NCBI GenBank assembly: GCA_000783305.1
Contig: JROE01000013.1
Span: forward strand, 140,789 to 204,788
DNA from: Sphingobacteriaceae bacterium DW12
Lineage (GTDB): Bacteria; Bacteroidota; Bacteroidia; Sphingobacteriales; Sphingobacteriaceae
Direction of reading: 5' to 3'
Length of the DNA: 64,000 nucleotides
The notes under the pieces are model-generated. The model did not search any database. It was given only the letters and a program-made list of their open reading frames with translations, and had not been told where the DNA came from. Positions 3,621-39,186 of the stretch are shown here, piece after piece. How positions within the stretch are numbered: the stretch's first letter is position 1; the number at the start of each line of letters is the position of its first letter. A program made the position numbers and the translations under genes.

Positions 3621-5216
3621 ATGAATATTAAGACAAGTATAAAAGCGATATTCTTGTTCCTACTGGTAGCAGTAGGAACAAGAGTCTCTGCTCAAGACGG
3701 TAAGGGAAGCCTGTTTTCGGACAATGGTCAGATGATCCTTGCCGAAGGTACCTCGGATGTCATCTATTCCGAAAAGCTGTTCCTAGGGCCTAATACAGAT
3801 TGGCAGATCAATGGCGATTTGTACGTCTACAGTAAAAATATCTGGATTGCACCGACAGCCAAGATTACAGGTTCTGGAAAACTGATATTAAAAGATCCAG
3901 GAGCTAATCCATATTATGAAGGTTGGGGCACTCAGCCGACCGTTATCGATGGGAACAACGGTGCATTCATCGGCGTGAATATCGTCATCGACAATGCCAG
4001 CAATATCAAATTGGCAGATATCACCGATCCAGGATATGATTTAAAAGAAAATGCAGACGGAATTGCGGCACTTAAAGTTGCGTCCAATATTGATTTCAAC
4101 GTACAAGGAGGAGATATTTTACTCAATGGCTTTGAGTTGGTACTTGGCCCCGACGCCACACTCTTAAATGCTGGAAGTATAGCCGGGCCTAATCAAAATA
4201 TTAAAGGCTATGTCGTCACTGGTAATATTCCAAAGAGCTTGTTGATCAAAAGCCTCAAAGCTGGCGAGCAGTTCTTATTCCCGGTTGGAATCAGTGAAAG
4301 CAGCTATACACCAGCCATCTTAACGCCTCAAGGAGAGACCAGACTGTATGTCAGTGTAGTGGATTACGAAGCTGCAGGAGCATTTGTACAGCTGGACGAC
4401 AAGGAAATCGGAATGGATCGTGTATGGCACATCTTTGCAGACAAAGATATGTTGTCGGATTATACTCTTATTCATCAGTCGATTACTAACGGTAAGATGT
4501 TTGTCGATAACAATGCCGAGGTGATGCAATACTCAGGTAGTGGCAACTGGATAGGTGATGTGACTAAACTCGGAGCAGCAGGAGTCCATACTCGTGCAGA
4601 TGTTGAGAGTTATGCTATACGTACCAAGGAAGGTACATGGATGACTAAATTTAGTTTCACTGGGCCTATTGCCAATGATGATACCTATGAACTGCCTTAT
4701 GAGGACAATTACACAGACGGAAAGAATAGGTTTGATATCTTAGTTAATGACAACGCTGGGTCAAGTCCAATCGACCGTAGTAAGGTGACAATTGTGACAC
4801 AACCAATACACGGTACGGTAGTCGTCAATGTAGATGGTACGGTCACCTATACACCGGATCCAGGATATGTTGGACAAGATGTATTCGAATATACCATTAC
4901 GGATGAGAATGGTTTGTCAGATACGGCCAAAGTAACCATCAATATCACAGGTCGTAAACTTCATATCCCGAATGTATTCACACCAAATGGAGATGGATTC
5001 AACGATAAGTTTGTCATCATTGGTCATGAGAATTATGACCGAATCAATATTACCATTGTAAATAGATGGGGCAATGAAGTATATCGCAGTACAGACTACG
5101 ATAACTCATGGGCAGGAGATGGCTTGAATGCTGGAACGTATTTCTATATCATTGAAGCAATCAAAGGCAGCCAAACTACGCTCTACAAAGGTGATGTCTT
5201 GATTAAGAGAAATTAA
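3621..5216 (+). CDS. T9SS type-B sorting-domain cargo with cadherin-like (tandem-95) domain
   Basis: 531 residues. A signal peptide (residues 1-24, ending VSAQ) is followed by a beta-rich region. A cadherin/tandem-95-like Ig domain at about residues 350-445 carries ANDDTYELP, GTVTYTPDPGYVGQDVFEYT and NGLSDTAKVTI. The last 84 residues (448-531) are a gliding-motility-associated C-terminal domain: HIPNVFTPNGDGFNDKF, then VNRWGNEVY, GTYFYIIEA and a basic end. That domain is the type-B signal for secretion by T9SS. Type-B cargos such as SprB need a PorP/SprF-like partner, and such a gene follows 137 bases downstream. Its job on the surface (structural or adhesive) is not visible. Confidence 0.9.
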   Translation: MNIKTSIKAIFLFLLVAVGTRVSAQDGKGSLFSDNGQMILAEGTSDVIYSEKLFLGPNTDWQINGDLYVYSKNIWIAPTAKITGSGKLILKDPGANPYYEGWGTQPTVIDGNNGAFIGVNIVIDNASNIKLADITDPGYDLKENADGIAALKVASNIDFNVQGGDILLNGFELVLGPDATLLNAGSIAGPNQNIKGYVVTGNIPKSLLIKSLKAGEQFLFPVGISESSYTPAILTPQGETRLYVSVVDYEAAGAFVQLDDKEIGMDRVWHIFADKDMLSDYTLIHQSITNGKMFVDNNAEVMQYSGSGNWIGDVTKLGAAGVHTRADVESYAIRTKEGTWMTKFSFTGPIANDDTYELPYEDNYTDGKNRFDILVNDNAGSSPIDRSKVTIVTQPIHGTVVVNVDGTVTYTPDPGYVGQDVFEYTITDENGLSDTAKVTINITGRKLHIPNVFTPNGDGFNDKFVIIGHENYDRINITIVNRWGNEVYRSTDYDNSWAGDGLNAGTYFYIIEAIKGSQTTLYKGDVLIKRN

Positions 5217-6559: not shown

Positions 6560-8512
6560 ATGGGTGTGTACAATATATATAGACTAATCATTGCAGGGTT
6601 TTTGCTAATCGGCAGCGGTGTACCTGTGATGGCACAAGAGCAGGTCAGTTTGAGGACAACAGCAGACAAGCTGTATCAACAGTATGAGTATCATACTGCT
6701 GCGGGAATTTATCAAAAGCTGGTGGATAAAAAGAAACCCAAACCCCAAGATATGGAGCGCTTAGCCGAATGCTACTATCGTATTAATGACTATTCCTTGG
6801 CGGAGAACTGGTATGCTAGAGTCATCAATAGTGTTGAATTCAGCGAACAGGCTCAGTTGAATTATGCCGACGTGCTCAAGAAAATGGGTAAGTATGCCGA
6901 AGCCAAGAAACAATTCGAGGCCTATGCACAACGTACCGGCAAGCAAGATGATGTGCGCCTTGCCATTCAAGGAGCAGACTCTGCGGTGGTGTGGATGGCC
7001 AATCCGACGGTGCACAAGTTAAAGAATGAAGACTTGATTAATACCCGTTACAGCCAATTCGGTACATTTCCGCTACAAGGAAGCGTGTTGTATACAGGCG
7101 AACCGGATAATTGGAATGGTGACGTCTCTGGAATGACAGGTCGGACGTTTTTGCGTATATATTCCAGTACCAAGGAAGCAGAGGGTATTACTTTGCAATA
7201 TCCCAATGTCCTTCAAGATGTCTTTAATGAAAGCGCCTATCACGTTGGCCCTGTGATTGCTAACAAGGATGAAAATATATTATATATTACGCGTACTTAC
7301 CCGGGAAAGGATACCGAGAAGAATAAATCGGGTAGGTATACTTTTAAAAAGCACAATCTAGAATTGATGATCTATACCAAAGATGGCGATGGATGGAAAG
7401 AAAATGCTTTTCCGTATAATGATGTGAAGCGCTATTCAGTGGGCCATGCAGCTTTGAGCGACGATGAGCAAGTGCTGTATTTTGCGTCCGATATGCCAGG
7501 AGGAAATGGTGGGGTGGACATCTGGTATAGCGAGCGTAATGCAGATGGGACTTGGGGCGCACCGCAGAATGCAGGAACGGAAATCAATTCCACAGGAGAT
7601 GAAATGTTTCCTTCTGTTGTTGGTAATAAACTCTATTATTCCAGTAACGGCTTTGCAGGAATGGGTGGTTTGGATATTTTTAGCGCAGACGGAAGCAAGG
7701 CATCCTTTAAGAACCGGACCAACTTACGTTTTCCCGTCAATTCAGCGTCCGATGATTTTGGTTATATCGTCATGGCCGATGGTAAAGATGCCCGCTACGG
7801 GTACCTTTCGTCGGATCGTATTGGCGGAAAAGGGCTAGACGATATCTATTCGTTCTCCTTTGCTAAACCTAAGATTACAATTCTATTGAACGGTCTTACG
7901 TATAATAAAAAGACAGATGCATTATTAGATGATGTTCAACTAAGTCTATTAGATGGCAACGGTCAGACAGTATCTAGAAGGTTGAGCGACGTCAAAGGAG
8001 CGTTTACATTTCCTATAGAAGCAGGATTGGAATATCGGGTTGTCGGAGAGAAGGTGAAGTTCCATGGCGATTCGGTTAATATTGCCGCTATCTACCCGAC
8101 CAAGGATACAACTATTAGCCTGACATTACGATTGGAACCCATTTTTGAAAAAGGGGCAACCTTTGTATTAGAAAACATCTATTATAACTTTGATAAATAT
8201 GACATCCGAGCAGATGCGCGCCCTATTTTGAATCAGTTGGTAGCGACTATGCGTGACAATCCAACACTTAAAATCGAACTATCGAGCCACACCGATAGCC
8301 GTGGTTCCAATAAATATAATATGACCCTTTCACAAAAACGTGCCGAATCAGCGGTTGAATATATCATTAGCCGTGGCATAGCACGTGATCGTATCGTAGC
8401 TAGGGGCTATGGCGAGACCAAGCTTGTCAACCATTGCGCTGATGGCGTGTCCTGCACGATACAGCAGCACCAAGCTAATCGCCGTACGGAAGTGAAAGTG
8501 CTTGATTATTAG
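6560..8512 (+). CDS. PorE-like OmpA family protein (TPR, beta-propeller, CRD, OmpA)
   Basis: 650 residues with a signal peptide (cleavage near VMAQEQ). In order: TPR repeats (about 30-130), WD40/PD40-type beta-propeller repeats (about 150-425, with LYFASDMPGGNGGVDIWYS and LYYSSNGFAGMGGLDIF), a carboxypeptidase-regulatory-like beta domain (about 430-525), and a C-terminal OmpA peptidoglycan-binding domain (about 538-650, with HTDSRGSNKYNMTLSQKRA). This is the domain order known for PorE of Porphyromonas gingivalis, an envelope anchor of T9SS. It follows the PorP/SprF gene by 192 bases, is read in the same direction, and ends at a strong terminator. It probably links the secretion or attachment complex to the cell wall; PorE identity itself is not proven. 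Confidence 0.85.
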   Translation: MGVYNIYRLIIAGFLLIGSGVPVMAQEQVSLRTTADKLYQQYEYHTAAGIYQKLVDKKKPKPQDMERLAECYYRINDYSLAENWYARVINSVEFSEQAQLNYADVLKKMGKYAEAKKQFEAYAQRTGKQDDVRLAIQGADSAVVWMANPTVHKLKNEDLINTRYSQFGTFPLQGSVLYTGEPDNWNGDVSGMTGRTFLRIYSSTKEAEGITLQYPNVLQDVFNESAYHVGPVIANKDENILYITRTYPGKDTEKNKSGRYTFKKHNLELMIYTKDGDGWKENAFPYNDVKRYSVGHAALSDDEQVLYFASDMPGGNGGVDIWYSERNADGTWGAPQNAGTEINSTGDEMFPSVVGNKLYYSSNGFAGMGGLDIFSADGSKASFKNRTNLRFPVNSASDDFGYIVMADGKDARYGYLSSDRIGGKGLDDIYSFSFAKPKITILLNGLTYNKKTDALLDDVQLSLLDGNGQTVSRRLSDVKGAFTFPIEAGLEYRVVGEKVKFHGDSVNIAAIYPTKDTTISLTLRLEPIFEKGATFVLENIYYNFDKYDIRADARPILNQLVATMRDNPTLKIELSSHTDSRGSNKYNMTLSQKRAESAVEYIISRGIARDRIVARGYGETKLVNHCADGVSCTIQQHQANRRTEVKVLDY

Positions 8513-8526
8513 TTGATAATGGTCAT

Positions 8527-8574
8527 TTGAATAAAAAAAGGCTCGCTAAATTTAGCGAGCCTTTTTTTATTCAA
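8527..8574. terminator. strong intrinsic terminator after the T9SS cargo block
   Basis: A perfect 48-bp inverted repeat with core GGCTCGCTAAA / TTTAGCGAGCC, preceded by an A-run and followed by a T-run, 14 bases after the OmpA-like stop codon. It can terminate in both directions. Confidence 0.95.
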
Positions 8575-8967
8575 TCTCTATTGAGTTCTAGCAAAGTATA
8601 TTGATTATGCGATTCCTGCTAGTTAAGAAGTCTATAAATTAATTATCAGGTTTCATTTTAGAGGGGAAGGGATTACCAGTGTATGTGATTTGTTAAGAGA
8701 GATGATTGCTACTTAATTACGGTGGGATATTGTAAAGCGTGGCTCGACACATGTTGCCTATGCAATAGTAATAAGAATCTTACTTGTGAAGTAGAGCCGT
8801 AATAATTTTATGTCAATATTTTGTTAAATGTTCCGTCTATTTGTATGTCATTTGTATGAAATTTTGTTTTTTATTATATATGCAAAATTATATTCGTTTC
8901 ATTATTTATATCTTTTAAGTATAAACAATATAAATAATGAATTTTCTTCGTGTAAATGTTAAAATAC

Positions 8968-8998
8968 TTGCAATAACAATAAGTCATTTCTATATTTG
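8968..8998 (+). promoter_or_regulatory. SusC distal promoter P1 (TTG-N20-TATATTTG)
   Basis: TTG at 8968-8970, 20-nt spacer, TATATTTG at 8991-8998: a full match to the Bacteroidota housekeeping consensus (TTG, 19-21 nt, TAnnTTTG). The start would fall near 9002-9005, about 390 bases before the SusC ATG. Confidence 0.65.
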
Positions 8999-9098
8999 CC
9001 CTCGGTTTAACAAAAATTAACACTTCGAATGAAGAATATTATTTTGTTACTCGCAACTCGCAAGAGGCGGTGACATATTGTTAAAGTCAAAATGGGTT

Positions 9099-9131
9099 GT
9101 TACAAATGCTTTGTAACCACTTGTTTTTTTT
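9099..9131 (+). terminator. terminator-like hairpin inside the SusC leader
   Basis: GTTACAAA (9099-9106), loop TGC, TTTGTAAC (9110-9117), six bases, then eight T (9124-9131). It would end a transcript from P1 after about 125 nt and lies upstream of P2. It may be an attenuator or define a short leader RNA. Confidence 0.5.
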
Positions 9132-9229
9132 AAGTATTTATTATGCTAGCATTTTAATTTTAGGTAGTTAATAATCAGGCTTTTAGGTTTTTAGGGTTCG
9201 GATTCCGCAAATAGTATCTTATGCAATCG

Positions 9230-9260
9230 TTTGTTTTTCTTGGATTAACTATTATTTTTG
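9230..9260 (+). promoter_or_regulatory. SusC proximal promoter P2 (TTTG-N19-TATTTTTG)
   Basis: TTTG at 9230-9233, 19-nt spacer, TATTTTTG at 9253-9260, a full consensus match. The predicted start near 9264-9267 leaves a leader of about 130 nt before the SusC ATG at 9397. Confidence 0.65.
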
Positions 9261-9396
9261 TTTTAACATTTTTTAACATTAATGTTTTTGCAGCTGATAC
9301 TAACCGTGGGGTGAAACTCATAATTTGCTATACCAATCACTACTATTGCTTACTCACGTCTCTTTCGGGGGACACTTTATTAATAAACATAAACAT

Positions 9397-12300
9397 ATGA
9401 AACAAAAATTACTCAGTTTTTTTCTTGTGTGTACACTCTTGGTTGGAGTTGCGTATGCGCAGAATCGTCAGGTGAGTGGTAAAGTTACTTCAGCTTCTGA
9501 TGGTACACCTGTACAAGGCGTATCTGTGGCAGTTCAAGGAACTTCTTCAGCCACACAAACCGATGGTTCCGGAAATTATTCCATTAATGTAGCGGGCAAC
9601 GCTACGTTAGTATTCTCGTATGTAGGGTATCAACGCCAAACAGTAGCTGTTGGTGAGCGCTCTACAGTGAATGTTCAATTGATCAGTGATGAGACATCCT
9701 TAGATGAAGTCGTGGTTACAGCATTGGGGATTCAGCGACAATCCAAATCTCTTACATACGCGACGAGTAAAGTGGACCCGGATGATTTATTACAGAATTC
9801 TGAGCCTGACATGTTAAAATCACTCCAAGGTAAAGTAGCAGGAGTAGATATAAGAACATCACAAGGGACACCAGGCGCAGCGACTCGATTTCAAATGCGT
9901 GGAAACTCATCATTCGGCGGGGATAATCAGCCTCTTATTGTTGTAGATGGAGTTCCTTATGATAATTCTAGCGTCGTTACTAGTTCGCAAACATCTGGAG
10001 GAGCGGCTTATTCTTCAGGAATCGCGAACCTTGATCCCAATGATATTGCTTCAATGAACATTTTGAAAGGATCTGCTGCAGCCGCTTTATATGGTTCTCG
10101 TGCTTCCAATGGAGTCGTGATTATCACGACCAAATCAGGTAGTGCTAAGCTAGACGCTCCAACTGCAATTACACTAAAAAGTTCAGTGTCCATGGAGAAT
10201 ATTGCCAATCTTCCAGAATATCAAAATAGTTTTGGTGCCGGATCCCAGTTTAATTATTCGAATTCAAACGGATCATGGGGACCTAATTTTAATAACCTGG
10301 ATAGTATACCTATGTGGCCTGACTATATTGCTGCGTTTCCTGAAAGGTGGCCTGTTGGATCAAAAGCACCGTATCAAGCATATCCTAATAATGTGAAGGA
10401 TCTGTTTAATACCGGAGTTGTTTGGGAAAATTCTATTGGAATTAGTGGTGGTGCTGCAACTTCTGGATTCAATATTACCGCTTCTCAGATGGATCATCAA
10501 GGTTATGTCCCTAACTCTCATTTTAAAAGATATAACTTATCTGCAGGAGGTAAGCTTAAAATTTCGGAAAAATTTAATGCTCGAGCTAACGTTTCATTTG
10601 CTAACTCAAATCAACGCGGAGGATATTTTGGAGAGAACCAAGTTGACGGTGCGGCGTCGCAGTTTGCTCGTTCCTTATTCTTAGGGCGTAACTGGGACGG
10701 ATCTCTTCCTTGGGAAAAAGAAGATGGAAGTAACCTTAACTGGTTAGGCGGTGGTCAATTTGATCATCCGATGTGGTCCGCTTATAATAATTATGCAAAT
10801 ACTGTTGAAAATCGCGTCATAGGTACATTTGGTTTAGATTACACTATTAACGATTGGTGGAGACTGGATTATAATTTAGGTACCAATATCAGCTTCTTGG
10901 ATAGAAAGGAGATTTACGAAATCAGTTCTAGAGCATATGAAGGGCTGGGAGGTCTAGTCACAGATGCACGTACTCATAAAGAATTAGAATCTACTTTCAT
11001 GAGTACATTTACACCTAAGATTAATGATGATTTTTCGATGATAGGATCTGTGGGATTCAACTATAATCAACGAATCATTGATAGAGATATAAATGAGGGG
11101 AAAAGATTCATTACACCAGGAATTTACTCCTTAACAAATACGGCACAACAGATTTTCGATACCGATGAGACTTTTAAAAGAAGAATCATGGGTGCTTTTG
11201 TTGATGTTAACTTTGGATTTAGAGAGTACTTATTTTTGCAGTTGACGGGTAGAAATGATTGGTCTTCAACACTTCCTAAAAACTCTAGATCGTACTTCTA
11301 CCCAGCAGTATCCACATCTTTTGTTTTTACCGATGCATTTGACTTAAAAAGTAACTTCTTAAGTTACGGTAAATTACGTGCAGCTTGGGCGAAAGTGGGT
11401 AGAGATACAGACCCTTACAATCTTTTAAATACCTATTCGATTGACAAGAACTTCTTAGGACAACCAAGTGGTAGTGTAAGAGTACGGTCCTTCAATCCTA
11501 ATTTAACACCAGAATTTACTAAAGAGGTTGAATTAGGTGCAGAAATAGCACTGTTACAGAGCCGAGTGAACTTAGATTTTACTTGGTACAATAAAATTTC
11601 GACAGATTTATTGTTCCCAATTTCGACACCGACCTCGTCGGGTTATGACGAATATTTTACCAATTTTGGTAAAATCAAAAATACAGGGGTTGAAATAGCT
11701 TTGCGCGTTAAACCACTGTCATCAACAAGTCCTGTTAAATGGGAAGTTTCGGGAGTGTTTACAAAGAATAAAAACACTGTTCTTGAATTGATGGAAGGAA
11801 CTGAAAGAATCGCGCTTAGAGGTGTATTATCGGGCACGATTTCTCCCTACTTAGAGAAAGATTTGCCATATGGATACCTACGAGGAACGAAGAATTATAG
11901 AGATGAAGACGGAAATCTTTTGATTAATCCAGCAACAGGAGCTTTAATCAAAAATCCTGAGGAAACAATGGTGGGGGATCCGAATCCTGATTTTAAATTG
12001 GGGATTAACAATGTTGTTTCCTACAAAGGCTTCACTTTTGCAGCTTTATTCGATATGACAAAAGGAGGAGATATGTACTCGGTGACGAATTCGTCTTTGT
12101 TAGGAAGAGGGGTTACTAAAGATACCGAAAATAGAGAATATAATGTTATTATACCTGGAGTCTATGGTGATCCTGCAACAGGTAAAGCAATTGTAGATGC
12201 CTCTGGTAATAAAATACAAAACCAAACGAGATTGACAGTCAATGATTTGTATTTCTCTCCGGATCCAAATGTAGGTCAAACTTTTGCAGTGAATTCAGCT

Positions 12301-12576
12301 ACAGAATGGAACGTTTATGATGCAACAGTTTATCGGTTGAGAGAAGTGTCTATTGGATATGAGTTACCGACAAAATTGTTTAGTAATTCCTTTATTAAAG
12401 GAGTCAATGTAAGTGTGACTGGACGGAACCTTTGGTTTTTAGCACCTAATTTTCCAAAGTATTCAAACTTTGATCCGGAAGTTAATAGTTTCGGATCTTC
12501 GACAACTCAAGGTATTGAATTGTCTGCGGCTCCTACAACCAGGAGATATGGTTTTAACTTGATCGCGAGATTTTAA
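9397..12576 (+). CDS. SusC/RagA family TonB-linked outer-membrane transporter
   Basis: 1059 residues from the ATG at 9397, which starts a signal peptide (MKQKLLSFFLVCTLLVGVAYAQ). An N-terminal carboxypeptidase-regulatory-like domain (about 23-105: VSGKVTSASDGTPVQGVSV, then FSYVGYQRQTV) precedes the SusC signature DEVVVTALGIQRQ and a TonB plug (about 125-240, with GVDIRTSQGTPG, PLIVVDGVPYD, GSRASNGVVIITTK). The rest is a TonB-dependent beta barrel ending in RYGFNLIARF. It forms the energised outer-membrane channel beneath a SusD lid, encoded 13 bases downstream. The substrate is not identifiable: no glycoside hydrolase or sulfatase lies next to it, so it could serve oligosaccharides, peptides or another ligand. 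Confidence 0.95.
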   Translation: MKQKLLSFFLVCTLLVGVAYAQNRQVSGKVTSASDGTPVQGVSVAVQGTSSATQTDGSGNYSINVAGNATLVFSYVGYQRQTVAVGERSTVNVQLISDETSLDEVVVTALGIQRQSKSLTYATSKVDPDDLLQNSEPDMLKSLQGKVAGVDIRTSQGTPGAATRFQMRGNSSFGGDNQPLIVVDGVPYDNSSVVTSSQTSGGAAYSSGIANLDPNDIASMNILKGSAAAALYGSRASNGVVIITTKSGSAKLDAPTAITLKSSVSMENIANLPEYQNSFGAGSQFNYSNSNGSWGPNFNNLDSIPMWPDYIAAFPERWPVGSKAPYQAYPNNVKDLFNTGVVWENSIGISGGAATSGFNITASQMDHQGYVPNSHFKRYNLSAGGKLKISEKFNARANVSFANSNQRGGYFGENQVDGAASQFARSLFLGRNWDGSLPWEKEDGSNLNWLGGGQFDHPMWSAYNNYANTVENRVIGTFGLDYTINDWWRLDYNLGTNISFLDRKEIYEISSRAYEGLGGLVTDARTHKELESTFMSTFTPKINDDFSMIGSVGFNYNQRIIDRDINEGKRFITPGIYSLTNTAQQIFDTDETFKRRIMGAFVDVNFGFREYLFLQLTGRNDWSSTLPKNSRSYFYPAVSTSFVFTDAFDLKSNFLSYGKLRAAWAKVGRDTDPYNLLNTYSIDKNFLGQPSGSVRVRSFNPNLTPEFTKEVELGAEIALLQSRVNLDFTWYNKISTDLLFPISTPTSSGYDEYFTNFGKIKNTGVEIALRVKPLSSTSPVKWEVSGVFTKNKNTVLELMEGTERIALRGVLSGTISPYLEKDLPYGYLRGTKNYRDEDGNLLINPATGALIKNPEETMVGDPNPDFKLGINNVVSYKGFTFAALFDMTKGGDMYSVTNSSLLGRGVTKDTENREYNVIIPGVYGDPATGKAIVDASGNKIQNQTRLTVNDLYFSPDPNVGQTFAVNSATEWNVYDATVYRLREVSIGYELPTKLFSNSFIKGVNVSVTGRNLWFLAPNFPKYSNFDPEVNSFGSSTTQGIELSAAPTTRRYGFNLIARF

Positions 12577-12589
12577 ATTAGATAGAACA

Positions 12590-14248
12590 ATGAAAAAGAT
12601 AAAAAATATATTATATATAGCGTTGGCGATTCTAGCTAGTTCATGTTCGAAACAGTTAGATATCAATGAGGACCCGAATAATCCGACAGCATTGTCCGAA
12701 GCAGTTTTATTGCCACGAGTGGAGAAATATGTTGGACAGTCCTTGGCTATGGGTACAGGTTTTGGTAACAATCTTTCTGCTTATACTCACCAGATGGTGC
12801 ATTACGGTGATGCTGATCAATACGGCTCAGATGGGACTGACTTTTATTGGAATCAGGGATGGGACTATTCATATAGAGAAGTCTTGACTAACGTTGATAT
12901 TATTATTACAAAAGGCACGGAAAATGATAATATGAAATATGTAGGGATTGCCAAGATCCTGAAAGCATATATGAGTAGTGTCCTGGTCGATTTATTCGGA
13001 GATGTTCCATTTTCAGAAGCAAATCAACTTGTGTCGGGTATTTTATACCCGAAATACGATAAAGACTCGGAAATTTATCCACAACTTATTTCATTATTAG
13101 ATCAAGGGATTGCTGATTTGCAAAATCAGAACGCGAAAAATTTGATTGTTCCCGGGACGGATGATGTTGTATATAAGGGCAAAATTGATAGTTGGATAAA
13201 AGCGGCTAATACAATCAAATTCAAACTATTGGTCCAACAACGCAAGGTAAAGGATGTAAGCGCTGATGTTAATGCACTGATTGCGGGGGATAAACTCATC
13301 AGCGCCACAGCGGAATCTTTTGTCATTCCTTATGGGCCTAACGGCGCTACTGATGATCGAAATCCTGGTTTTGGTGAGTACTTTGCATCACAAAGGACTA
13401 TGCATGTAAGCCCTTGGTTGTACGAGATTATGAAGGGATACAATACTAATATTCTTACGGGAATAGAAGACCCGAGAATACCTTACTATTTCTACAACCA
13501 AATGAAGAAGACTGACGATCCAAATCCTGATGTAGAGTATCGTGATGGTGCATTTGTATCCAAGTATTTTGGTAGTCAGGGGGGCAATAGAGGAAAGAAC
13601 GTGCAAAATCAACTGACTCTGTTTGGAATATACCCTGTAGGGGGGCGGTTTGATGATGGTGCGGGAGGTACGGCCTCGGCATCTAGTGGCACCGGGGCAG
13701 CACCTTATCGACTTATCACCTTTGCTGACGTCTTATTTTTACAAGCGGAGTTGATTAATGAAGGTGTTATCTCAGGAAATGCTGCAGATAAACTTAAGGC
13801 TGCTATTACTGAATCCTTTAATACAATTGATTTTGTAGTGAAAGGAGCAGGTACATCGCAAACAGTTCCACCAATTGCAGGATCTGCTGATGCCACAACT
13901 TATTTAGACAAAGTTATGACCAAATTCAATGCGGCTTCAACTAGTAAGAAGTTGGAATACATCATGACGGAGAAATGGTTATCTACAGTTGGGGCTTGGG
14001 TGGATCAATATACAGATTATAGAAGAACTGGATATCCAGTGCTATTCGACCCTAATACTGTACCGGGAAAGCTTGTGACACCACCAGCAGGTGGTAATGG
14101 AGGAGATAATCTGCCTGCAGTACCCGTCATCCTGAATCGGCCATTTCCAAATTCGCTACCATATGTAAATAGTGAATTGAATATGAATATGAATGCTCCT
14201 GCGCAAAAGGCTAATTTAGCCACTGCTAAGATATTTTGGATGCCATAA
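12590..14248 (+). CDS. SusD/RagB-type (SusD-like_2) surface lipoprotein
   Basis: 552 residues with a lipoprotein signal: LAILASSC with the lipid-acceptor Cys at residue 19, followed by SKQLDINEDPNNPT, the classic start of the SusD-like_2 family. The middle is helix-rich, as in SusD TPR-like folds (VGIAKILKAYMSSVLVDLFGDVPFSEA is the typical conserved core), and the C-terminal part has NRPFPNSLPYVNSELNMN, which is common in this family. It caps the SusC channel and binds substrate at the outer surface. It sits between SusC (13 bases) and a companion lipoprotein (14 bases), clearly one operon. Confidence 0.93.
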   Translation: MKKIKNILYIALAILASSCSKQLDINEDPNNPTALSEAVLLPRVEKYVGQSLAMGTGFGNNLSAYTHQMVHYGDADQYGSDGTDFYWNQGWDYSYREVLTNVDIIITKGTENDNMKYVGIAKILKAYMSSVLVDLFGDVPFSEANQLVSGILYPKYDKDSEIYPQLISLLDQGIADLQNQNAKNLIVPGTDDVVYKGKIDSWIKAANTIKFKLLVQQRKVKDVSADVNALIAGDKLISATAESFVIPYGPNGATDDRNPGFGEYFASQRTMHVSPWLYEIMKGYNTNILTGIEDPRIPYYFYNQMKKTDDPNPDVEYRDGAFVSKYFGSQGGNRGKNVQNQLTLFGIYPVGGRFDDGAGGTASASSGTGAAPYRLITFADVLFLQAELINEGVISGNAADKLKAAITESFNTIDFVVKGAGTSQTVPPIAGSADATTYLDKVMTKFNAASTSKKLEYIMTEKWLSTVGAWVDQYTDYRRTGYPVLFDPNTVPGKLVTPPAGGNGGDNLPAVPVILNRPFPNSLPYVNSELNMNMNAPAQKANLATAKIFWMP

Positions 14249-14262
14249 TTAATTTTTGATAA

Positions 14263-15132
14263 ATGAAAAGAATTTTATATATATTAATGATGATATCAAC
14301 GGTGGTTGTTTCATCATGTCGGAAGAGTGATATTGGTTCAATGCCAGATGGTATTGTTTACTTAAATCAACCTCAGATTGTTAAAGATGCATCAACCGAC
14401 CCAGCTATTTTGGATACAGACCCATTGGCTTTTAAGGCAAAGGTTTCAGTGGATATATACTTTAAAAACTCGGAAAAGCCAAAAAAATACGACCTTGTCG
14501 TAATGAAAAATGGTGACCCAAAAAGTGTTAAGACGTTGAAGGCTGACATTACTAGTTTCCCGACTATAGTAGATGTGTCGGGACAGCAACTTACTGATTT
14601 ATTTTCTACGGGTATTGTTGCAGGTGATAGTTTTGACATCGGTGCGAATATTACTATGCCCAATGGTAAAACTTATCTGGCTTATCCTGAGGTTGGTATT
14701 GGTTATGGTCCCGGTCTAGCTGGACAACCAGGAGCAAGCCCTGCAGTTCGGTATACTGCTATATGCGGTTATGTAGCTTCTGAAGCTGTTGGAGATTACA
14801 ATGTTGAAGTGGACGGATGGGAAGATTTTGGCGTGGGTTCTACTGCTAAAGTCAAAGCCGGCGCTACTGAAGATGAATTGTTGATTGAATATCCAATACC
14901 TGGATTTGCGCCTATTAAATTGAAGATTGACCCTCGGGACAACACGCTGACTGTTGCGAAGCAAACGGTTGGCGCTTATGGCGGGTCATGGCAATACGGT
15001 GTATTCTCTGTAAACTCTGTTCCTGGAAATGATAATTTTATTAATCCTTGTGATGGAACAATCAGCGTGAGATTATCTTACACGGTAAGTGCTGGTGGAT
15101 TTGGTGATTTTGTACTTAAGATAAAGAAATAA
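14263..15132 (+). CDS. SusCD-associated lipoprotein of unknown function
   Basis: 289 residues, lipoprotein signal with a Cys at residue 19 (VVVSSCRKSD). The mature protein is beta-rich with Gly/Ala/Val content and no catalytic motif that I recognise. The central part (DLVVMKNGDPKSVKTLKADITSF) looks like an Ig-like or DUF1735-like N-terminal domain, and the C-terminal part (about residues 165-289) resembles a lipocalin- or BACON-type beta domain, but both are guesses. As the third gene of the SusC-SusD operon it probably sits on the cell surface as a SusE/F-like ligand-binding accessory. The operon closes with a terminator at 15163. Confidence 0.75.
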   Translation: MKRILYILMMISTVVVSSCRKSDIGSMPDGIVYLNQPQIVKDASTDPAILDTDPLAFKAKVSVDIYFKNSEKPKKYDLVVMKNGDPKSVKTLKADITSFPTIVDVSGQQLTDLFSTGIVAGDSFDIGANITMPNGKTYLAYPEVGIGYGPGLAGQPGASPAVRYTAICGYVASEAVGDYNVEVDGWEDFGVGSTAKVKAGATEDELLIEYPIPGFAPIKLKIDPRDNTLTVAKQTVGAYGGSWQYGVFSVNSVPGNDNFINPCDGTISVRLSYTVSAGGFGDFVLKIKK

Positions 15133-38992: not shown

Positions 38993-39023
38993 AGTTGTCG
39001 CTTTGATTATCGATATTAGCTAC

Positions 39024-39126
39024 GCTTATGGAGAAAGGCAGAGGGAATAGACCCGATGAAGCCTTAGCAACCTGTCTGAAGACAAGGTGCTACATTCTAC
39101 CCCGCCAATCAACGGGAAAGATAAGC
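39024..39126 (+). ncRNA. SAM-I (S-box) riboswitch upstream of metF
   Basis: P1 closes with GCTTAT (39024-39029) and ATAAGC (39121-39126). Inside are the conserved S-box segments: AGAGGGA, GACCCGATGAAGCC, GCAACC, AAGGTGCTA and a short P4-like CCCGCC...CGGG. It is the only SAM-responsive element in the window and precedes metF by about 300 bases, so methionine/SAM level should control that gene. Very confident on class; expression-platform details are inferred. Confidence 0.95.
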
Positions 39127-39186
39127 CGAAAACACTGTTCCTTGGTGTCTTTCTCTCTGAGCTTTCATATGTTAATTTTTATTATT

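Follow-up and report, generated by a model that had tools for sequence, protein, structure and literature searches.

Promoters of the Bacteroidota carry, in the partial text of two sources, a -7 box of the pattern TAnnTTTG and a TTTG near -33 (PMC7366714, PMC9723704). In Flavobacterium psychrophilum, amino-acid operons are reported to be preceded by leader-peptide transcription attenuators (PMC9723704, partial text), and DonS-type cis-antisense RNAs are short RNAs found at susC genes (PMC7366714, partial text). In the SusC/RagA shufflon of B. fragilis (Region EE), alternative SusC/SusD pairs are placed behind one promoter region (PMC5729914, partial text), and the ragAB locus of P. gingivalis is allelic, with a conserved N-terminal part (PMC11817032, partial text).

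The SusC leader examined here lies within the window, the whole 64,000-nucleotide stretch of DNA that was analysed. The SusC gene (9397–12576, + strand) encodes CarbopepD_reg, Plug and barrel domains scoring above the Pfam cut-offs and is accompanied by a SusD partner, which identifies the product as a SusC/RagA TonB-dependent transporter. The head of the protein extends to residue 102 and the TonB box DEVVVTALG is encoded at 9703–9729, followed by the plug and barrel. The partner (12590–14248, + strand) is SusD-like by Pfam and precedes the gene of a 289-residue protein (14263–15132, + strand) that accompanies the same SusC/SusD pair in genomes G034 and G039, with 50% identity by tblastn. The 5′ neighbours of the leader are CHU_C, PorP/SprF and OmpA genes, assigned by Pfam, and a strong terminator-like hairpin with 20 counted pairs is located directly 3′ of the OmpA gene at 8527–8574. 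An Rfam scan at the gathering score gave no match at the leader; the sole match in the window was a SAM riboswitch (RF00162, 70.7 bits, 39023–39127). A distant search of a plasmid collection with positions 8500–9500 gave no match, and a DNA search of the genome itself found no second copy of the leader, the next best match having an E value of 0.33.

Promoters and hairpin of the SusC leader

The leader contains two promoters on the + strand. P1 (8968–8998) has the form TTG-N20-TATATTTG, with the TTG at 8968–8970 and TATATTTG at 8991–8998, and is kept in the loci L039, L042 and L184. P2 (9230–9260) has the form TTTG-N19-TATTTTTG, with the TTTG at 9230–9233 (TTG from 9231) and TATTTTTG at 9253–9260, and is conserved in five other cassettes (G053c2, G058c1, G058c2, G081c2 and G081c3); leaders in these three genomes also contain P1. 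The probability of two or more TTG-N17-22-TAnnTTTG sites in a first-order random leader of equal size was 0.0165, so the pair is unlikely to be due to chance. The related pattern TTG-N18-21-TAnnTTTG was found within 480 nt in 97 of 165 related SusC leaders against a shuffle mean of 10.7, these leaders being a biased sample of one SusC subfamily because relatives were selected for resemblance to the DNA of the window leader and SusC start, or for the presence of the 20-base start. The spacing was 19 or 20 in 95 of the 97 promoter-bearing leaders, and two such promoters occurred in 3/165. The shuffles behind the promoter and hairpin chances, the alignment z scores, the box comparison and the counts among 97 leaders were all first-order resamples. 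The proposal of the first-pass annotation that P1 and P2 are Bacteroidota-type promoters is supported by the excess over shuffles and by their recurrence in relatives, each being conserved in different leaders. Spaced TTAACA repeats (TTTAACAAAAATTAACA-like) directly follow both promoters (9006–9025 and 9262–9280) and are also seen after promoters in other leaders, for example L055, L075 and L163.

A terminator-like hairpin on the + strand (9089–9127) with a tract of eight T (9124–9131) was located between the promoters, as the first-pass annotation had reported. Its core, GTTACAAA-TGC-TTTGTAAC, is at 9099–9117, and the predicted stem adds nine pairs across one mismatch to give a folding energy of -12.1 kcal/mol. 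The hairpin and U tract could end P1 transcripts near 9131 and give an RNA of about 125 nt. The 138 nt from 9003 to 9140 fold better than shuffles (z -2.66), and the probability of a hairpin of at least 8 pairs followed by a T run in a first-order random leader of equal size was 0.17, so the hairpin by itself is just mildly unusual. Under strict criteria (at least 8 pairs, at least 2 G-C pairs and seven T in eight) the window was alone among the 97 related promoter-mapped leaders in having a hairpin plus U tract between promoter and gene, with 0.7 expected from shuffles. Looser criteria, applied to 52 leaders, gave U-run hairpins 3′ of a promoter-like site and ahead of SusC in two leader types, one represented by L024 and L050 and the other by L028 and L038. 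In L024 and in L050 (reversed locus, gene at 4059) an ORF encoding MKSDSFRFL at about -130 to -105 overlaps the hairpin and T run; this element lies downstream of a P1-like promoter and makes a stronger case for attenuation than the window leader does.

Two smaller elements were also considered. An ORF of 14 codons, MKNIILLLATRKRR, is located in the P1 leader at 9029–9073 (+ strand); since it is no copy of the SusC start and G053 lacks its ATG, it is treated as probably a chance ORF and was rejected as a member of the leader-ORF class described below. A small hairpin 24 nt before the SusC ATG (9358–9373, + strand) is common to seven leaders, with 34 of 35 cells paired, and 254 of 2000 shuffles did as well, which makes it suggestive only.

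Origin of the leader pieces

The genome G053 is of the same species as the window genome, G000, and shares the flanks of the locus, with protein identities of 95% for OmpA, 99% for PorP, 97% for CHU_C and 92% for DUF6266. Between these flanks G053 contains two tandem SusC/SusD cassettes and G000 one. A P1 block (8842–9048, + strand), consisting of the upstream region, P1 and the first 45 nt or so of leader, is homologous to the leader of the first G053 cassette, with 73.7% DNA identity to L039 13709–13503; positions 8862–9003 also match L042 1447–1589. A P2 block (9210–9730, + strand), consisting of P2, its leader and the SusC head, has 83.9% DNA identity to L039 8039–7506, and this homology to the second G053 cassette is continuous through the leader into the SusC head. 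The order is the same in the arrays of G053, G058 and G081: the leader of the first cassette is of the P1 type and those of later cassettes are of the P2 type. The junction of the two leaders in the window would lie at 9049–9096, since the homology to cassette 1 stops at 9048 and homology to P2-upstream DNA begins inside this interval.

The DNA between the two blocks, 9049–9209, aligns to the regions upstream of P2 in G081c2 (z 4.1), G058c2 (4.0), G053c2 (3.3) and G058c1 (3.2). In this test, which covered 67 of the 165 leaders, z exceeded 3 for 4 of 28 non-self P2 upstreams and for none of the 38 regions that follow N20 promoters; the mean z was about 1.2 over the 28 (2.4 over 29 if the self-match of the window is counted). 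A weak match of 9059–9070 to the 3′ region of SusD had a P value of 0.05–0.10. The P2 upstream region contains a TTGTTACAA box at 9097–9105 (+ strand), which four other P2 leaders carry as TTGTTACA at -299 to -312, and a palindrome, ATGCTAGCAT, at 9143–9152 that forms a ATGCNNGCAT-like element. The box and this element are 46 nt apart in the window and 47–49 nt apart in G053c2, G058c1 and G081c2. In G058c2 the whole inverted repeat is colinear, without a T tail, and the region there comes after a SusD gene and a terminator-looking hairpin. Given the homologies of 9049–9209, the spacing of the box and the context in G058c2, the window hairpin is most likely part of the inter-cassette DNA that precedes P2.

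The window leader is probably a composite that arose when an upstream SusC/SusD cassette was lost, with an orphan P1 fused to the leader of P2; the reading draws on the homologies observed, on the numbers of cassettes and on how rare the arrangement is. It is also favoured by a search of G000 for an ortholog of the first G053 SusD, which found none, the best match having 29–34% identity. The ancestral state would have been as in G053, with P1 leading the first SusC/SusD pair and P2 the second, and the first cassette would have been deleted in the window strain. With that cassette gone, P1 and about 45 nt of its leader would be followed directly by inter-cassette DNA, beyond which lies P2. The working promoter would be P2, its leader passing without a break into the SusC head, and P1 an orphan whose transcripts probably stop at the hairpin (9089–9131), which may insulate P2 from P1. 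Several observations count against cassette loss. No strain intermediate between the two-cassette and the fused arrangement was found, the SusD match at 9059–9070 that would place the junction is weak, the inter-cassette region of G053 is longer than its equivalent in the window, and G000 is a draft of 78 contigs, so an assembly error in a repeat array is possible. The hairpin is also stronger than its counterparts: its -12.1 kcal/mol compares with -7.6, -5.5, -3.7 and -3.6 in the colinear DNA of four other cassettes, which lack the T8 tail that follows the box in the window alone. This may mean selection rather than a pure relic, and is compatible with a terminator gained or retained to protect P2 from P1.

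The difference in strength is the evidence for a reading that adds to cassette loss and does not exclude it, in which selection after the fusion strengthened the hairpin and so kept P1 transcription out of P2, with the leader RNA of about 125 nt as a by-product that is possibly functionless. As the comparison concerns a single genome, such an insulator is possible but doubtful. It is less probable again that the inverted repeat TTGTTACAA/TTTGTAAC is a putative DNA-binding dyad for a regulator of P2. The recurrence of TTGTTACA in the four other P2 leaders, the full dyad in G058c2 and the 46–49 nt spacing to the ATGCNNGCAT-like element kept in the window and three of the four leaders point in this direction, but G053c2, G058c1 and G081c2 lack the second arm, and the repeat sits about 150 nt upstream of P2, which is far for a bacterial operator.

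The first-pass annotation had proposed an attenuation switch, or a short leader RNA for nutrient control of SusC/SusD. In such a switch P1 transcripts would stop at the hairpin unless an antiterminator formed, P2 would provide basal expression, and the level of SusC would respond to a nutrient. Both promoters are real, the hairpin has its U8 tract, the P1 leader is better folded than its shuffles and contains a 14-codon ORF, and the loci found with looser criteria extend the pattern beyond the window. The predicted terminator-like element does lie between promoter and gene, but it is not conserved in relatives: the P1 leader of G053 has no such hairpin and P1 there runs straight into its own SusC, the strict count of 1/97 is close to the 0.7 expected, and the ATG of the ORF is not kept in G053. 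The hairpin moreover lies in DNA resembling inter-cassette sequence, and there is no link between leader and transporter body, as described below. Neither an attenuation switch nor a leader RNA for nutrient control was borne out at the window leader, and we regard the switch as unlikely. Loss of a cassette remains the preferred reading, and its main value for the window is that a probable scar is not mistaken for a switch.

SusC heads and bodies and the 14-codon leader ORF

The window SusC and the second SusC of G053 share 94% identity over the first 110 residues and then 18–35% per block, whereas orthologs of the window SusC from S. olei, S. haloxyli, S. gobiense and S. phlebotomi have 68–73% identity over the first part and 63–86% after it. 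The change in identity between head and body falls at the TonB box. The relation was measured in 29 of 40 SusC proteins, after ten without the motif and one over-long ORF had been dropped. Identities of heads and bodies were uncorrelated (rho 0.07, P 0.19, 406 pairs), while the first 115 columns of the body correlated with the rest of the body in the same proteins (rho 0.64); the size of this effect is tied to the sample, the window and L039–L058, loci chosen for similarity of the head. Heads were at least 80% identical in only one of the 14 pairs with body identity of at least 70%, and bodies were below 45% in 16 of the 17 pairs with head identity of at least 80%. Judged from these alignments, SusC bodies appear to have been exchanged at the TonB box behind resident promoter-leader-heads. 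The DNA of the TonB box was rejected as a recombination site, since its third codon positions vary (31 of the 40 genes, nine without the motif having been dropped). Elsewhere the body of the window SusC is preceded by other leaders: a short one in S. olei, one carrying a 14-codon ORF in S. phlebotomi and S. gobiense, one of yet another type in S. haloxyli, and in G034 one that has a 14-codon ORF but is of a different kind. The leader is therefore not tied to the nutrient of the transporter.

The first 20 bases of the SusC genes, ATGAAACAAAAATTACTCAG (9397–9416 in the window), are nearly invariant in 52 of 53 leaders compared (L056 was dropped), including synonymous positions, whereas later codons of these genes vary at third positions; on this comparison the invariance is a nucleotide-level constraint. 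With one mismatch allowed, ATGAAACAAAAATTACTCAG was present in at least 87 of 93 genomes of the genus, with the reversed control in none, and in at least 77 of 301 genomes of the family, from 8 of 25 genera. Eleven copies of the start with up to three mismatches open a short ORF upstream of SusC, and all eleven ORFs are exactly 14 codons long; three further short ORFs in the same list sit at the fetched gene start and hence are not upstream ORFs. An ORF scan found this class in 24 of the 165 Sphingobacterium SusC leaders, 237–294 nt before SusC, chosen by the length of 14 and the start pattern, with L112 doubtful and L038 and L179 having the same peptide and near-identical leaders. Loci of the class include L028, L038, L047, L048, L050, L053, L065, L075, L083, L085, L096, L103, L111, L112, L119, L127, L130, L132, L133, L154, L176 and L179. 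The ORFs mostly copy the SusC start, as in MKQKLLSLFPLLRI and MKRNLLTNPLHFLC, and residues 8–14 differ between groups. Such an ORF was found upstream of none of ten genes with this start from other genera of the family.

The length is also unusual in an unselected count, where 27 of the 74 ATG ORFs with a start between -310 and -225 had 14 codons, compared to 13 of 262 nearer the gene. In three alignments of 8, 10 and 5 leaders no gap events fell inside the ORF, compared to 21, 25 and 16 in the RNA that follows, giving Poisson chances of 0.004, 0.005 and 0.04 for zero gaps. We infer that the constrained property is the translation of a leader ORF of fixed length. A long-range pairing seen by eye in these leaders was not backed by RNAalifold, which gave weak pairs only in two groups, with no double changes and no covariation, so no structured RNA is claimed. 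The window leader, by homology, falls outside this class.

These observations can be tentatively combined for Sphingobacterium, in a reading that we consider possible although somewhat short of even. SusC bodies would be exchanged at the TonB box, leaders would be distinct regulatory modules, the 14-codon ORF class would compete for, or report on, a factor that reads ATGAAACAAAAATTACTCAG, and the window leader would be a natural fusion of two modules. Since bodies would be exchanged behind resident modules, regulation would belong to the site and not to the transporter. If this is true, a nutrient receptor comes under the control of whichever site receives its body, a point relevant to the ways in which Bacteroidota vary the surface receptors that serve for nutrients and are used by phages. 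The class of 14-codon leader ORFs is a candidate control element that can be tested directly. The literature searched (titles and abstract openings, few subscription journals) contained no description of this class, of the window leader or of TonB-box exchange in Sphingobacterium.

Comparison with known systems

The window leader resembles the attenuators of F. psychrophilum in having a promoter, a short ORF and a terminator-like hairpin, but its ORF and hairpin are not conserved and the hairpin is predicted only (PMC9723704, partial text). As with the DonS-type RNAs, a short RNA would be found at the start of SusC, although any P1 RNA would be sense and not antisense (PMC7366714, partial text). 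No minus-strand TTG-N17-22-TAnnTTTG was present in the window below 13.9 kb, which includes the SusC start.

The SusC/SusD pairs of the B. fragilis shufflon share their start-codon DNA, and the placing of alternative pairs behind one promoter region resembles the alternative bodies described here (PMC5729914, partial text). The shufflon uses inverted repeats and an invertible promoter (PMC5729914, partial text), whereas the Sphingobacterium cassettes are tandem and in one orientation, with the TonB box as the point of exchange. Among the matches listed, neighbouring copies of the start sequence are in direct orientation and none form an adjacent inverted pair. The genes scanned at 1.3–21.6 kb of the window, five downstream genes among them, included no recombinase. 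Like ragAB of P. gingivalis, an allelic locus, the SusC genes have a highly conserved N-terminal part, comprising the signal peptide and CarbopepD_reg_2 before the TonB box (PMC11817032, partial text). A difference from ragAB, as far as that source text describes it, is that the Sphingobacterium arrays contain several cassettes with different bodies, which more than one species can share, and that heads and bodies are uncorrelated (PMC11817032).
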